Positions 6,303-12,016 of a DNA stretch of 64,000 bases are shown here, in pieces. Numbering within the stretch: position 1 is the first letter of the stretch; each line of letters begins with the position of its first letter. The stretch covers positions 2,914,001 to 2,978,000 of the forward strand of contig NZ_JANADO010000001.1 in the NCBI RefSeq assembly GCF_024199845.1, written 5' to 3'. Below the pieces are notes generated by a model. It was not told where the DNA came from. It saw only the letters and a list, made by a program, of their open reading frames with translations, and did not search any database. The translations under genes and the position numbers were made by a program. Origin of the DNA: Bradyrhizobium sp. CCGB12 (GTDB lineage Bacteria > Pseudomonadota > Alphaproteobacteria > Rhizobiales > Xanthobacteraceae).

Positions 6303-6333
6303 AGCCCGTGCCGGACGCGTGGTGGCGGTAGCG

Positions 6334-7200
6334 ATGGAGAAGGAAACCGCGCGGGATTTTCTTGAATTCCATGACCTCGGCGCGGAAGCGATCCTGTCCA
6401 TCATCGACCGCGCGCAGGTGCTCGCGGCGGCATGGAGCAACCGCGCCATGCCTCAGCGTCTCGCCGGCAAGCGCGCGGCACTGATCACCGATGACAGTGG
6501 ATGGAGGAATACGACGGCCTTCGATCTCGGCATCCAGGCGATGGGTGGCATCTGTGTAAGCGCGCCGGTCAGATTCAACGCGGGCGAGGCGACGGCCGAT
6601 CTCGCCAAATATCTCGACAATTGGTTCGACGTCCTGATCGTGCGCACCAGGGAGCTGTCGACCCTGCGAGCGCTCGCATCGAACGCCCACGCGCCGGTCG
6701 TCAACGCAAGGACGCGGTCAAATCACCCCTGCGAAACGCTCGGCGATCTCGCTTATATCAGAAGCAAGAGAGGGCATCTCGACGACCTCAAGGTCGCGGG
6801 CGTGGCGCCCGATGCAAACATCCTGCGTTCCTGGGTCGAAGCCTCCATCGCCCTGCCGATCAACGTGACCCAGATCTATCCGGCGGACCGGCATGTCCGA
6901 GACATTGCAAGTCCGAGGTTCTCGGCAAGCACCGATCTAGATGCTTTGTACGATGCGGACGTGATCATCACGGACTGCTGGCCTGACGGCGCACATGAGG
7001 ATCAACTTGGACCCCACCGGATATCGGCGTCGTTGCTCGACAAATGCCGCAGCGACACGATTTTTCTGCCCTGCCCGCCCGTGACCAGGGGCCAGGAGGT
7101 CACCGCTGATGCTATGTCGCATCGCGCCTGCCAGAGCCCGGCGGCGAAGGCCTACCTGCTCCACGCGCAGAACGCGCTGCTGGAATGGATCGCGGCATGA
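6334..7200 (+). CDS. Aspartate/ornithine carbamoyltransferase-like protein with altered CP loop
   Basis: About 288 residues with the two-domain transcarbamoylase plan. The carbamoyl-phosphate loop, normally STRTR, reads DSGWRNTTAF here. The HPCQ motif reads NHPCETLGDL, and the C-terminal HCLPxxRGEEV-like segment reads LPCPPVTRGQEV. The middle Asp/ornithine-domain signature (KVAGVAPDANILRSWVEASI) is weaker than in ArgF. It is probably a diverged paralogue with a different or lost substrate and should not be called ArgF. ATG 6334 is preferred; a GTG at 6319 would add five residues. It sits close to MAPEG and converges on the methyltransferase. Confidence 0.72.
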   Translation: MEKETARDFLEFHDLGAEAILSIIDRAQVLAAAWSNRAMPQRLAGKRAALITDDSGWRNTTAFDLGIQAMGGICVSAPVRFNAGEATADLAKYLDNWFDVLIVRTRELSTLRALASNAHAPVVNARTRSNHPCETLGDLAYIRSKRGHLDDLKVAGVAPDANILRSWVEASIALPINVTQIYPADRHVRDIASPRFSASTDLDALYDADVIITDCWPDGAHEDQLGPHRISASLLDKCRSDTIFLPCPPVTRGQEVTADAMSHRACQSPAAKAYLLHAQNALLEWIAA

Positions 7201-7234: not shown

Positions 7235-7828
7235 TCAGCCCGCCGGCTTGCGCATGACGAGATTCAGCATGCTCGCTGGCGTCTGGTCGAAACTCTGGAT
7301 TTGGTTGTTGTCCGCTGACAGCGTGATCCACGGACCCGCGCTGGCGTAGATCGCGTCCAGCCATTGGCGTGGCGGATAGTTGTAGTAGCGCCCGAGACTG
7401 TCCCGACCGTCGCCCTCGCCCATCTTGTAGCTGGCGTAGAACACGCCCGACGGCTTGAGCGCGCGATGAATCCGCCTGAGGATTCCGGCCAGCTCTTCGC
7501 GCGGGACATGGAGCAGACACGCGCTGGCCCAAACACCGTCATAGGCCTCTTGCACATCGAGTTCATCGAACCGCATCGCCTCGACGGGATGGCCGAGCCG
7601 CTGTGACGCGATCGCGGCCATTTCCGGCGAGCCGTCAGTGGCGCGCAGCGAAAAACCTTCCGCCAGCATCACCGCTGCATGATTGCCGGCGCCGCAGCCA
7701 AGTTCGAGGATAGCGCCGCCGGGTGGCAACAGAGCGAGAAAGCCCTTGAGCCGCGTCGACGGTGCCTTCGCCCAGTCTGCATAGGACTGGGCGTTGCTAC
7801 GATAAAATTGCAGAGTTCCCTCGTCCAC
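7235..7828 (-). CDS. Class I SAM-dependent methyltransferase
   Basis: A 197-residue protein with the SAM-binding motif I ILELGCGAGNHAAVML (about residues 40-55), acidic motif II (LRATDGSPEMAAIA) and motif IV region DGVWASACLLHVP. The fold is the UbiE/tellurite-resistance-type small-molecule methyltransferase, but the substrate is unknown. The start codon is GTG at 7828 with AGGTGG before it. It follows type 1 argC by eight bases, so it is probably the last gene of the paiB-argC-argC run. Confidence 0.85.
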   Translation of the reverse strand: MDEGTLQFYRSNAQSYADWAKAPSTRLKGFLALLPPGGAILELGCGAGNHAAVMLAEGFSLRATDGSPEMAAIASQRLGHPVEAMRFDELDVQEAYDGVWASACLLHVPREELAGILRRIHRALKPSGVFYASYKMGEGDGRDSLGRYYNYPPRQWLDAIYASAGPWITLSADNNQIQSFDQTPASMLNLVMRKPAG

Positions 7829-7836
7829 GATCCCAC

Positions 7837-8883
7837 CTACGGAAACAGCGCGATCTGCTCCAGGCCCGTAGTCTCGGGGAAACCGAACATCAGGTTCATG
7901 TTTTGGATCGCCTGCCCGGCCGAACCCTTCACCAGATTATCTAGCGTGGAAATCACGATCGCGCGGTTCTTGATGCGGTCGGCGACGACGCCGATCTGCA
8001 CGTAGTTGGAGCCGCGGACATTCTGGGTCTGCGGCAGCACGCCCTTCCTGGCGACATGCACGAAGGGCTCGTTGGCATAAGCCTGCTCCAGCACGGTTCG
8101 CAGATCGTCCGGCGTCGCGCCGTTGAGCTTGACGTAGGAGGTGCAGAGCTCGCCGCGCGCCATCGGAATAAGATGCGGCGTGAAGTTGATCGTCACTGCA
8201 GAACCGACGGCGACGCCGATCTCCTGCTCGATCTCGGGCGCGTGCCGGTGGGTGCCGACCGAATAGGGCGATAGTCCCTCGCCCGCCTCGCTGAACAACG
8301 TGCTCTGTTTCAGCCCGCGGCCTGCGCCGGTGACGCCCGATTTCGCGTCGATGACGATGTCGTCGACGTCGATCAGTTTGGCTTTCGCAAGCGGCACCAG
8401 CGCGAGCAGCGCCGCCGTGGGATAGCAGCCGGGACAGGCGACCAGCCGCGCCGACGTGATCTTCTCGCGATAGAATTCGGTGAGACCATAGACCGCTTCG
8501 CCCTGCAGCTCGAGCGCCCGGTGCTCATGTCCATACCATTGCGCATAGGTGTTCTTGTCCCGCAGCCTGAAATCGGCGGACATGTCGAGGACCTTGATTT
8601 TGGGATTTGCCTTGAGGACCGCGGCGATGATTTCCTGCGTGGTGCCGTGCGGCAGTCCGCAGAACACCGCATCGAGCTTGCTCCAGTCGACCTTTTCCCA
8701 TTCCACGAGTTTCGGCAGGTCCAGCATGAAGAAATGCGGAAACACGTCGCCCATCGACTTGCCGGCGTGGGTGTTGGCGGTGAGCGCGATGATCTCGGCA
8801 TTCGGATGCCGGGCCAACAGGCGCACCGCATCGGCCCCGGTGTAACCGGAGGCGCCGAGAATGCCGATCTTCTTCGAGCTCAT
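7837..8883 (-). CDS. argC: N-acetyl-gamma-glutamyl-phosphate reductase, type 1
   Basis: NADPH-dependent reduction of N-acetylglutamyl phosphate to the semialdehyde, third step of arginine synthesis. It shows the Rossmann loop GILGASGYTGADAVRLL, the catalytic Cys in CPGCYPTAAL near residue 153, and GTHRHAPEIEQE with the active-site His. The 348 residues are normal for type 1 ArgC. ATG 8883 is placed eight bases after AAAGG; a GTG at 8886 is one codon longer. A second, type 2 ArgC lies 96 bases upstream on the same strand, so this genome has two non-homologous-length forms side by side. Confidence 0.96.
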   Translation of the reverse strand: MSSKKIGILGASGYTGADAVRLLARHPNAEIIALTANTHAGKSMGDVFPHFFMLDLPKLVEWEKVDWSKLDAVFCGLPHGTTQEIIAAVLKANPKIKVLDMSADFRLRDKNTYAQWYGHEHRALELQGEAVYGLTEFYREKITSARLVACPGCYPTAALLALVPLAKAKLIDVDDIVIDAKSGVTGAGRGLKQSTLFSEAGEGLSPYSVGTHRHAPEIEQEIGVAVGSAVTINFTPHLIPMARGELCTSYVKLNGATPDDLRTVLEQAYANEPFVHVARKGVLPQTQNVRGSNYVQIGVVADRIKNRAIVISTLDNLVKGSAGQAIQNMNLMFGFPETTGLEQIALFP

Positions 8884-8979
8884 CACGCGTACCTTTCAGG
8901 CGTCATTTGGTCGTCTTGCCGGGGTAGAAAGTCGCAGCGTCGCTCCGTCCACCGGGTTGGCCTCGCGAGCAACGTTCGA

Positions 8980-9966
8980 TCAGCTATTGTCGGCAAGGCC
9001 CAGCATCAGCCGCATGTTCTGTACGGCTGCGCCCGAGGCGCCCTTGCCGAGATTGTCGAGCCGGGCGACCAGCACCGCCTGGTGATATTTGTCGCTGGCG
9101 AAGACGTAGAGCTCGAGCATGTTGGTCTCGTTGAGTGCCTCCGGCTCCAGCCGCCCGCCCTTGGTCGCCTCGTTCTGGAGCGGCATCACCGAGACGTATT
9201 TCGAGCCGGCATAGCGCGTTGCGAGGGCAGCCTGAAGATCAGCACCGCTGGGCTTGCCCGGCAGCGCGTCGAGCTGGAGCGGCACCGACACCAGCATGCC
9301 CTGCCGGTAGTTACCGACCGAGGGAATGAAGATCGGCCGCCGGGTCAGGTTCGAATAGAGCTGCATCTCCGGCAGATGCTTGTGCTCGAAGCCAAGGCCG
9401 TAGAGCTCGAAGGACGGCGCGCTGCCGTCTTCGAAGCTCGCGATCATCGACTTGCCGCCGCCGGAATAGCCGCTCACTGCGTTGACGGTGACGGGATAGT
9501 CAGGCGGCAACAGGCCGGCATCGACAATCGGCCGCAGCAGCGCGATCGCACCGGTCGGATAGCAGCCGGGATTCGAGACCTTTTTCGCGGCCTTGATCTT
9601 GCCGGCCTGGTCCGCCGTCAGCTCGGGAAAGCCATAGGCCCAGTCGGGCGCGACCCGGTAGGCGGTGGAGGCGTCCAGCACCTTCGGTCCCGAAGCGCCC
9701 ATGCTGTCGACCAGCGCGACGGTTTCCTTCGCGGCATCGTCGGGCAGGCAGAGGATGACGAGATCCACCTCCTCCATCAGCGCCTTCTTGGCCGCGGGGT
9801 CCTTGCGTTTGTCGTCGGCGATGGTCTTCACCGCGACGTCGCCCTGCAGCTTCAGCCGCTCGTTGATGCCGAGCCCGGTGGTGCCGGAGCCGCCGTCGAC
9901 GAAGACGGTGGCCGGCTTCTTCGCCGCGCCGGTGGTCGGGGCTTTCGTGGTCTCAGCGAGGCTCAT
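8980..9966 (-). CDS. argC: N-acetyl-gamma-glutamyl-phosphate reductase, type 2
   Basis: Same reaction as the neighbouring gene but from the shorter type 2 ArgC family. The 328 residues carry [18 protein letters not shown] as nucleotide loop and [14 protein letters not shown] with the catalytic Cys135. The first 20 residues form an Ala/Thr/Lys-rich tail before the domain. The ATG overlaps the stop of the paiB-like gene by four bases (ATGA), and AAAGGAG precedes it, so the two are translationally coupled. Having both ArgC types in tandem suggests duplicated control or different substrates; see the findings. Confidence 0.95.
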
Positions 9967-10643
9967 GGCGCGCTCCTTTCGAGCATGTTGGTGTCGTCTG
10001 CGAAAACTTGTTCAGTGAAGGCTTGCGGCCGGGTCTGCCGCATCAATTGCGAGATCTGCCTGGCGTCGGCATCGCCGTCGCCAAGCGCGCTCGCGATCGC
10101 TGCGTAGTCGGCATCCGACTTGTGCTGGTTCAGCTTGAAGCTGCCTTCGACCTCCTCAACCGTCATGACCAGACCCACGATCGCCTTCTTCATCGCCTCG
10201 AGCCGGCCCGCCGTCATCTTCGCCGATGTCCACGGTTTCTTCGGCAGCAGCCAGTTCTCGAACTTGTCGCTGAGCGTGTCGATCTGCACGGCCAGCTCGT
10301 CGTCCGACAACAGCCGCACCGGACCGCCGAGATGCACCGACTGGTAGAGCCAGGTCGGCACCTGATCCGGCGAGACGTACCAGTCCGGCGACACATAGGC
10401 ATCGGGACCGTTGACCGCGAGCAGCCAGGACGCAGCGCCGCCCGCAAGCTTTAGCAGCGGATTGTGACGGGCGACATGAAAGGCGGCCTGCGGCGTGCCG
10501 TCCGCCGCGTAGGTCAGATAGAACGGCAGCGGCGATGCGACCGGCTTGTGGCCGTCGAAGGCGCACATGGTGCCGAAGCCGCGCGCCTCGGCGAATTTCA
10601 GGCTCGCGGCGCGGTCCTGCTTGAAAAAGGGTGGCGTATACAT
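9963..10643 (-). CDS. FMN-binding PaiB-family protein
   Basis: A 226-residue protein of the PaiB / FMN-binding negative transcriptional regulator family. It starts [11 protein letters not shown] and contains [12 protein letters not shown] and the FMN-site [12 protein letters not shown] segment ([13 protein letters not shown]), with [14 protein letters not shown] in the middle. These proteins fold as split barrels that bind flavin; PaiB of Bacillus affects sporulation and protease genes, but a DNA-binding role elsewhere is unproven. AGGAG precedes the ATG at 10641-10643. It is the first gene of the run with the two argC genes and lies behind the candidate Arg leader. Confidence 0.88.
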
Positions 10644-10697
10644 CGTGGTCTCCTGCTGGGCCTCCTTGGGAAGCCGCCGGATCAGATCGCGCTGACA

Positions 10698-10730
10698 GGA
10701 GAAAGAATGCCGCGGATCGGATCCAGCGGC
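10698..10730 (-). terminator. Candidate attenuator terminator of the argC operon
   Basis: On the minus strand GCCGC-t-GGA pairs with TCC-GCGGC around a five-base loop (10709-10730). It is followed by ATTCTTTCTCC (10698-10708), a pyrimidine/T-rich tail. It lies between the Arg-rich leader frame and the ribosome site of the paiB-like gene, where an attenuator terminator is expected. Confidence 0.45.
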
Positions 10731-10743
10731 AAAGACGATGATC

Positions 10744-10821
10744 TCAAACGCGATCGACCGCCCAAACCGCAAGAGTGCGGCGGCGGCGACGGGCGAACAG
10801 GATGGTCGCGGCGTTGATCAT
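10744..10821 (-). CDS. Candidate arginine leader peptide (25 codons)
   Basis: A 25-codon frame beginning MINAATILFARRRRR, with five consecutive Arg codons (CGT and four CGC) and a sixth Arg near the end, closed by TGA at 10744. Its ATG lies about two bases after the start site predicted from the promoter at 10830-10858, so the transcript would be leaderless or nearly so, like the trpL leader of rhizobia. The Arg codons sit in the ascending arm of a small hairpin (CCGCA-CTCT-TGCGG). A terminator-like hairpin follows, then the paiB-like and argC genes. Translation is inferred, not shown. In GC-rich DNA, Arg runs also occur by chance. Confidence 0.5.
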   Translation of the reverse strand: MINAATILFARRRRRTLAVWAVDRV

Positions 10822-10829
10822 GGCGCGGG

Positions 10830-10858
10830 CCTATAAGGCCGGCGGGTTCCAGGGTCAA
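10830..10858 (-). promoter_or_regulatory. Sigma-70-type promoter of the Arg leader and argC run
   Basis: On the minus strand TTGACC (10853-10858), a 17-base spacer and TATAGG (10830-10835). Initiation would fall near 10822-10824, directly before the ATG of the Arg-rich frame. The region to the right up to 11020 carries no gene I can support. Confidence 0.6.
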
Positions 10859-11020
10859 GTCAAATCCGTGGCGTTCGCGGGCAGGTTGCCGCACCCGCAC
10901 TGATGTCATCGGGGTGCAGCGGAATTTCCGTTAAGCATAGGGGTTCCCGAGAATGACCGACGCGACACAACCCCGCCGGTCCGTGTGCCTTTCGTTCGCA
11001 ACCCAGCCCAGGACATCGCC

Positions 11021-12016
11021 ATGACCGAGATTACTCGTCGTGCAACGCTAGCCGGCGCCGCCGCCTCGGCGCTCCTGCCCTTCGTGAAGACCTCGCCCGC
11101 GAGCGCTGCCGCGCCCCCGGCTGCGTCCCAGAATGCGAGCTTCTACCGCTACAATGTCGGCAGCCACCAGATCACGGTGGTCTGCGACGGCGTCATTACG
11201 GTCAACCTGACCGACAATTACGCGGCCGGCGCCAGCAAGGACGACGTCAACAAGGTCTTTGCCGAGCATCACCTGCCGGCCGACAAGGTCACCCACACCT
11301 TCAATCCCGTGGTCGTCAACACCGGGCCGAAGCTCGTCGTCATCGACACCGGTCTCGGGCCCGACCAGTTCACGCAGACCAAGGGCAAGGTGGGCCAATT
11401 CCACAACAACCTCGCAGCCGCCAGCATCGACCGCGCGGCGGTCGACACCGTCATCATCTCGCACTTCCACGGCGACCACATCAACGGCCTGCTCGCGGCC
11501 GAGAACAAGCCGGCCTTCCCCAACGCCGAGATCATGGTGCCGGCGGTGGAATGGAAGTTCTGGATGGACGACGGTGAGATGAGCAAGGGGACCGGCAATC
11601 CCATCCTCGAAAACAACTTCAAGAACATCCGCCGCGTGTTCGATGCGCTCGGCCGCAAGGTCACGCAATACGAGTCCGGCAAGGAAGTCGCGCCCGGCAT
11701 CACCTCGGTGGCAAGCCCGGGCCACACGCCGGGGCACAACTCCTTCATCGTCGCCTCGGGCTCCGAGAAGGTGCTGGTGCAGGTCGACATCACCGCGGGC
11801 GCGGCGTTCCTGTTCGTGAAGCACCCTGAGTGGAACATCGCCTCCGATGTCGACAAGCCGCTGGCGCAGCAGACACGGCGAAAGCTCTACGACATGGCGA
11901 TCGCCGAGAAGATGCCGATCCAGGCCTTCCATGCCGCCTTCCCCGGTCTCGTCCGGGTCGAGAAGGACGGCTCCGGCTATCGCTGGGTTCCTGCGATCTG
12001 GAACGCCTCGCTGTAG
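11021..12016 (+). CDS. Tat-exported MBL-fold metallo-hydrolase
   Basis: A 331-residue metallo-beta-lactamase-fold hydrolase. The N-terminus TEITRRATLAGAAASALL is a twin-arginine signal, with Ala-rich cleavage region ASAAAPPAA near residue 30, so the mature enzyme is periplasmic. Metal ligands are seen in IISHFHGDHINGL (HxHxDH), SPGHTPGHNSF (His) and a later VDITAG Asp. The terminal part resembles the AHL-lactonase/QuiP and alkylsulfatase-like group, but the substrate is unknown. The start at 11021 has AGGA ten bases upstream. It faces the dedA gene. Confidence 0.88.
   Translation: MTEITRRATLAGAAASALLPFVKTSPASAAAPPAASQNASFYRYNVGSHQITVVCDGVITVNLTDNYAAGASKDDVNKVFAEHHLPADKVTHTFNPVVVNTGPKLVVIDTGLGPDQFTQTKGKVGQFHNNLAAASIDRAAVDTVIISHFHGDHINGLLAAENKPAFPNAEIMVPAVEWKFWMDDGEMSKGTGNPILENNFKNIRRVFDALGRKVTQYESGKEVAPGITSVASPGHTPGHNSFIVASGSEKVLVQVDITAGAAFLFVKHPEWNIASDVDKPLAQQTRRKLYDMAIAEKMPIQAFHAAFPGLVRVEKDGSGYRWVPAIWNASL

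Follow-up and report, generated by a model that had tools for sequence, protein, structure and literature searches.

How is arginine synthesis adjusted in Bradyrhizobium and its relatives, and could a translated leader stand in for the repressor ArgR? The question is raised by a locus in a stretch of 64,000 nucleotides from Bradyrhizobium sp. CCGB12 (the window), in which an earlier note had proposed an arginine attenuator ahead of a paiB-argC operon. In rhizobia, the trp leader trpL is leaderless and is reported to act by attenuation through Trp codons (PMC7298713; PMC10117765). Comparison with related genomes confirms the leader at window positions 10698-10858, and the comparative evidence supports its interpretation as an arginine attenuator. 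We consider it highly probable that this element upstream of paiB-argC works as a ribosome-mediated transcription attenuator, with charged Arg-tRNA as the signal that it senses.

The earlier note had named ArgR repression as the usual regulator in these bacteria. A search for the ArgR C-terminal domain (PF02863) returned nothing in any of 42 genomes, the window's included, while 8 of 14 control genomes were positive. Judged from this domain content, ArgR repression is unlikely here, and that part of the note appears not to hold.

The leader precedes an operon with two argC genes

The leader and the operon lie on the minus strand. Profile matches in the window give the gene order 3′ of the leader as PaiB-like, argC_other, argC and methyltransferase, bearing out the claim of a paiB-like gene followed by two argC genes. 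The first gene (9966-10643, start ATG at 10643) encodes a PaiB-like FMN-binding protein (Pfam FMN_bind_2, 1.6e-40); no NCBIfam model gives this gene the name paiB, and the label is that of the earlier note and of this report. Its Shine-Dalgarno sequence AGGAG occupies 10650-10654, and all 44 loci examined have GGAG ahead of the start. Two N-acetyl-gamma-glutamyl-phosphate reductase genes follow, argC2 (argC_other, 8980-9966; TIGR01851, 3e-125) and argC1 (argC, 7837-8886; TIGR01850, 1.5e-126), and a SAM-dependent methyltransferase gene (7235-7828; Pfam Methyltransf_25, 2.1e-14) ends the run. Because the window's genome has no argC match above the cut-off beyond those two (the next, at 63 bits, falls far below), a switch at this site would gate the arginine pathway itself.

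Downstream of the leader, argC2 is present in 139 of 139 loci tested and argC1 as well in at least 36, a count from which the window and L001 were left out and in which 33 loci are short on the downstream side. At two loci (L319 in genome G163 and L320 in G084), a TIGR01850-type argC takes the place of argC_other behind the same leader and PaiB-like gene. As far as these gene arrangements indicate, the leader is linked to ArgC function rather than to one particular argC gene.

Three observations concern the genes of the neighborhood. The window's argC1 shares 84% identity with argC of genus g20 (L171), which belongs to another family, and 58% with its counterpart in L320, a locus from the window's family; this disparity may point to horizontal acquisition of argC1 by the operon. 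A carbamoyltransferase-fold gene (6319-7200, plus strand; OTCace_N, 1.5e-23) converges with the argC operon; it scores below the cut-off of every NCBIfam carbamoyltransferase model and may encode a divergent ArgF-like enzyme. The divergent neighbor on the other side (10985-12016, plus strand) encodes a metallo-beta-lactamase-fold protein that is nearest to AidB-type lactonases, far under that model's cut-off, and genes resembling it lie upstream of the operon on the same strand in several relatives.

Promoter and leader frame are conserved across the family

The promoter described in the earlier note is present at the claimed site, with a -35 element TTGACC (10853-10858) separated by a 17-base spacer from a -10 element TATAGG (10830-10835) that lies 8 bases before an ATG (10821-10819), which predicts a leaderless or near-leaderless start. 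The ATG opens a frame of 25 codons plus TGA, MINAATILFARRRRRTLAVWAVDRV (10744-10821), in which codons 11-15 form a run of five Arg codons, CGT CGC CGC CGC CGC (segment 1, 10777-10791; three to five codons in relatives), and codon 24 (10752-10750) is a sixth Arg codon, again as the note had it. A strict consensus scan of the window for promoters and terminators listed neither this promoter nor the hairpin terminator discussed below, and folding of the leader RNA surpasses that of shuffled sequences by a modest margin (z = -1.89; 9 of 200 shuffles were equally good). Since the consensus scans are silent at the site and the folding margin is modest, the case for the leader rests on comparison.

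We collected 141 loci with a PaiB-like match at E ≤1e-30, a set in which L001 and the window are one and the same place and some species are represented twice; three paralogues from the window's own genome (L002-L004) were left out of the count, and no leader frame was found before them. A frame of 22-25 codons precedes the PaiB-like gene in all 141 loci, from Bradyrhizobium and six more genera of the family. A scan of named genomes gave 177 PaiB-like relatives, from which 80 loci, nearly all Bradyrhizobium, were kept, and whole-genome searches added 29; the frame lies upstream of the PaiB-like gene in all 80 and all 29. When 248 genomes of the family were searched for argC_other, 55 scored above the cut-off, and 40 of those places were fetched. 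Thirty of these carry a PaiB-like gene, each with the leader, and contribute the genera g30, g37, g44, g50, g52 and g64 beside the window's own. Outside this sampling lie 97 of the 177 relatives, six PaiB loci of the same genus listed without a locus, and distant PaiB relatives of other families.

The -35/-10/ATG pattern matches 139 of the 141 loci, with 6-8 bases between the -10 element and the ATG in 135. In an alignment of 48 sequences, TTGAC is retained in every one, TTGAC and the -10 element keep a near-fixed distance from the ATG, and bases farther upstream are unconserved. A GC-rich genome could be expected to give CGC runs and hairpins anywhere, and a background of this kind exists: a covariance-model search of the window's own genome returned 14 matches at E ≤1, the true site included, and loose-rule Arg-run frames appear before other argC genes in 27 of 129 regions, four of them judged real. 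The true site, however, scored 1.8e-25 versus 0.002 for the next match, and retention of the leader in 141 of 141 loci refutes a chance origin, to which we give practically no credence.

The leader appears to be under selection as a translated frame

Among 81 distinct DNA versions of the leader, the start ATG is kept in all 81 and an in-frame stop is always there, as TGA (62), TAA (12) or TAG (7). The Arg run comprises five codons in 45 versions, four in 24 and three in 12, never fewer than three, and its codons are CGC (306) or CGT (51). When 34 leaders were aligned at the run (L115, L117, L125 and L147 being left out), three Arg codons proved invariant with synonymous CGC/CGT changes. Beyond these, the aligned part has a single invariant residue, an Ala (GCG) within segment 2; the rest vary. 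Because ATG, stop and Arg run are kept while codons vary synonymously, we infer that the leader is translated, and the pattern is that expected from selection on translated Arg codons.

These data bear on two other readings of the frame. One holds that the locus encodes a conserved structured RNA or small RNA in which the Arg-rich frame is incidental and the CGC repeats serve pairing alone. The Arg codons do form GC-rich pairing strands, and the long-range helix 3:5 described below co-varies, as such an RNA would have it. A frame without a coding role would not be expected to keep its start, register and stop in all 81 versions while the stop codons interchange, and differently designed Arg leaders precede argC elsewhere; we therefore find this reading very unlikely. 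The other holds that the nascent peptide, rather than tRNA charging, senses free arginine, for which the fungal arginine attenuator peptide is a precedent. The peptide is near-constant within the main Bradyrhizobium clade and identical in 67 of the 141 loci. Across genera, however, the 34 aligned leaders vary at nearly all positions but the three Arg and one Ala, and the invariant Ala codon sits in a pairing strand, which leaves peptide sensing highly improbable.

Helices 2:3 and 3:5 co-evolve in the leader RNA

In the reading that we prefer, sensing of Arg-tRNA charging by a translating ribosome, the transcript would begin on the leader ATG or no more than about two bases away from it, as the conserved promoter spacing suggests, and because of this position the first ribosome would load onto the 5′ end of the RNA. 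With ample arginine the ribosome would reach the stop codon and cover segment 2, so that segment 3 pairs with segment 4; hairpin 3:4 would then stop transcription and release a leaderless RNA of about 115-125 nt. Under arginine shortage the ribosome would wait at the first Arg codons, and the free segment 2 would capture segment 3 ahead of the synthesis of segment 4. With 2:3 formed, the polymerase would read through into paiB-argC. In this scheme we infer actual termination, arginine as the effector and the transcript start site.

The predicted pairing strands lie as follows. Segment 2, GCGGUUUGGGCGGUCG (10755-10770), a GCGG..GGGCGG.. sequence directly after the Arg run, can pair alternatively with segment 1 or segment 3. 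The segment 3 region, GAUCAUCGUCUUUGCCGCU (10725-10743), supplies the 3′ strand of the antiterminator, and its end doubles as the 5′ arm of the terminator hairpin. Farther on, element 5, GATCCGGCGGC (10673-10683), is complementary to the terminator 5′ arm over about eleven bases (10683-10673 against 10730-10720) and could form an alternative helix 3:5.

We compared the duplex energies of pairing strands from the same locus with those of swapped partners, using either 37 loci (44 minus seven near-duplicates) or 13 hand-chosen clade representatives, permutation tests in which relatedness is incompletely corrected. For 2:3, own partners averaged -24.06 versus -22.49 (sd 0.36) for swapped ones in the 37 loci, a difference reached in 0 of 20000 permutations, and the 13 representatives gave 91 of 50000. 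Individual loci follow the same trend: a five-base insert in segment 3 of L135 is matched by an altered segment 2, and L115, L117 and L125 keep the 2:3 pairing in a shifted register. Helix 3:5 co-evolves in the 13 representatives (5/50000) and more weakly in the 37 loci (903/20000). Helix 1:2 is borderline in the 37 loci (921/20000), with no signal in the 13 representatives (9714/50000). No signal was seen for 2:5, 1:3 or 2:4 in the 13 representatives, or in either set for 3:4, whose strands hardly vary. A pairing between the end of the leader frame and alignment columns 151-155, suggested by 18 double-change cells, was not confirmed by partner swapping (19553/50000).

Ribosome position is predicted to select the fold

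We modeled folding in 44 representative leaders with the ribosome edge assumed to lie 12 bases past the A site. A ribosome placed on the stop codon gives 3:4 in 44 of 44 RNAs that end at the hairpin. If the ribosome is instead held at the first Arg codon before segment 4 exists, all 44 leaders form 2:3, whereas a stall at the last Arg codon permits 2:3 in just 11 of 44; because of this difference in nascent 2:3 formation, the Arg run appears to be placed where stalling matters. The earlier note had called for the leader RNA to be folded for alternative pairing, and the predictions indeed contain a mutually exclusive antiterminator and terminator, of which 2:3 co-varies.

Once segment 4 is present and the ribosome waits at the first Arg codon, 26 of the 44 leaders have the antiterminator as their equilibrium fold and 18, the window's clade among them, have the terminator. 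Since 3:4 is then the equilibrium fold even during the stall, leaders of the window's type would need the order of folding to operate the switch. In full-length leaders extending to paiB, the mean probability of 3:4 is 0.48 with the ribosome at the stop and 0.22 in a stall. Segment 3 pairs with the frame at a mean probability of zero at the stop and 0.25 in the stall, and with the region past the hairpin, which holds element 5, at 0.46 and 0.49. In the window's own full-length fold with the ribosome at the stop, 3:4 has a probability near 0 and 3:5 dominates once element 5 is transcribed. Because 3:5 thereafter nearly excludes 3:4 in the window, the attenuation decision would have to precede transcription of element 5.

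Terminator quality differs among relatives

The GC hairpin with a tail that the earlier note placed before the paiB-like gene is there: hairpin 3:4, TGCCGC..GCGGCA (10708-10731), separates the frame from the PaiB-like gene and is followed by a pyrimidine tail, ATTCTTTCTCC (10698-10708). The hairpin is all but invariant, with seven RNAalifold pairs (columns 100-107/116-122) kept in 44 of 44 loci, one of them as G-U. Conservation in species with the same operon, whose absence would by that note have refuted its proposal, extends to the Arg run, the promoter, hairpin 3:4 and pairing 2:3. The 12 bases past the hairpin contain between 2 and 11 U across relatives, 7 in the window, a weak U tract, and three or fewer in 12 of 44. 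From these sequences, intrinsic termination at 3:4 seems plausible for Bradyrhizobium; for some of its relatives it is doubtful.

The same arginine-sensing leader might instead act through Rho-dependent termination, RNA decay or control of paiB translation. In many relatives the U tract that follows 3:4 is weak, which would fit such an output, as would helix 3:5, which adjoins the paiB Shine-Dalgarno sequence, co-evolves and dominates the window's predicted full-length fold, and a possible Shine-Dalgarno hairpin with a weak co-evolution signal (2227/50000). Salmonella orf34-speF, moreover, is reported to join Arg codons to Rho, RNA structure and RNase G (PMC6386406). Against this stand the Arg leaders of L124, L131, L171 and L221-L224, which have a classical hairpin followed by T6 to T8, and the predicted accessibility of the Shine-Dalgarno sequence, which is the same for a stalled ribosome as for one at the stop (mean 0.30 and 0.30). 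The latter led us to reject Shine-Dalgarno sequestration as the main output. On balance we regard an output other than intrinsic termination at 3:4 as unlikely, though a serious contender.

Arginine leaders of other design precede argC

Arg leaders of a different design occur directly before argC in two groups. In the ten fetched argC_other places that have no PaiB-like gene, L124 and L131, from the window's family, have argC2 alone preceded by an Arg leader of 20 codons and a T6 terminator, and no Arg leader was recognized in the other eight. In genus g20, which belongs to another family of the same order, the leader of five of the six genomes runs to 16 codons and contains RRR or RRRR (MFSTVTTRRRRILIQR is one of these leaders), and that of the sixth (L225) reads R-S-R-R by eye, a run that our rule missed. 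All six g20 leaders (L171, L221-L225) are followed by a GC hairpin and T6 to T8 directly before argC. In seven leaders of other design, the equilibrium fold during a stall keeps the terminator in five and loses it in L171 and L224.

The loose-rule survey covered 129 further argC regions from the order and the class, and the four frames judged real were L221-L224. Because no convincing Arg leader was found outside g20 in these regions, Arg attenuation before argC does not appear to be general in the class. Thirteen weak covariance-model matches elsewhere were also inspected: L162 and L168 are the same leader before a PaiB-like gene, L171 is the Arg leader of other design mentioned above, and the remaining ten were rejected as lacking the promoter-ATG-Arg run-stop layout. 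Rfam covariance models gave no match in the window or in L221, L171, L131 and L124. Since the leaders of g20, L124 and L131 differ from the window's in sequence and layout, Arg attenuation before argC would seem to have arisen, or been rebuilt, more than once.

Discussion

If the attenuator reading is true, it provides a concrete answer to how arginine synthesis is adjusted in the Bradyrhizobium group, alphaproteobacteria that seem to lack ArgR, and arginine would apparently join the amino acids that regulate their own synthesis through classical attenuation. It also predicts a small leaderless RNA and a peptide. A more speculative extension, which we consider improbable as a whole, is a two-tier arginine switch standing in for ArgR: tRNA-charging attenuation through 1:2, 2:3 and 3:4 would be followed, after read-through, by a 3:5 decision beside the paiB ribosome-binding site, the released leaderless Arg-leader RNA or peptide might act in trans like rnTrpL or peTrpL, and Arg leaders would have originated repeatedly, ahead of argC genes of more than one type.

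To our knowledge there is no arginine case among the classical his, trp, leu, ilv and thr attenuators, whose logic of segments 1-4 the leader shares. A search of mainly open literature found no arginine attenuator of argC or arginine biosynthesis for these bacteria, and none appears in the portions available of a survey of Actinobacteria (PMC1262725) or of premature terminators (PMC2965389). The main texts of a B. japonicum start-site paper (PMC4842269) and a small-ORF paper (PMC5082802) make no mention of argC, arginine or leader peptide. A Rho-linked leader is reported to control a DUF1127 gene in S. meliloti (PMC12218461).

Three described leaders invite comparison. Salmonella orf34, the leader of speF, likewise uses consecutive Arg codons in an upstream frame to report arginine via ribosome pausing, but it has two such codons, serves a polyamine gene rather than an arginine biosynthesis gene, and is described as acting through Rho, RNase G and Shine-Dalgarno sequestration (PMC6386406). 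The S. aureus leader peptide rbfL also senses arginine limitation at Arg codons; there, in contrast, the codons are rare, and the paused ribosome is reported to block the next ribosome-binding site and repress a biofilm regulator (PMC13009471). The closest likeness is to trpL/rnTrpL of S. meliloti trpLE(G) and peTrpL of B. japonicum, which combine a leaderless frame, consecutive end-product codons, alternative antiterminator and terminator, and release of a small RNA (PMC7298713), features that are predicted here. The present leader differs from rhizobial trpL in its Arg codons, its presumed control of paiB-argC, its weaker U tract and its extra co-evolving helix 3:5. Taken together, these comparisons suggest that the Arg leader is a ribosome-mediated attenuator with a new amino acid, to which helix 3:5 would add an element beyond that scheme.
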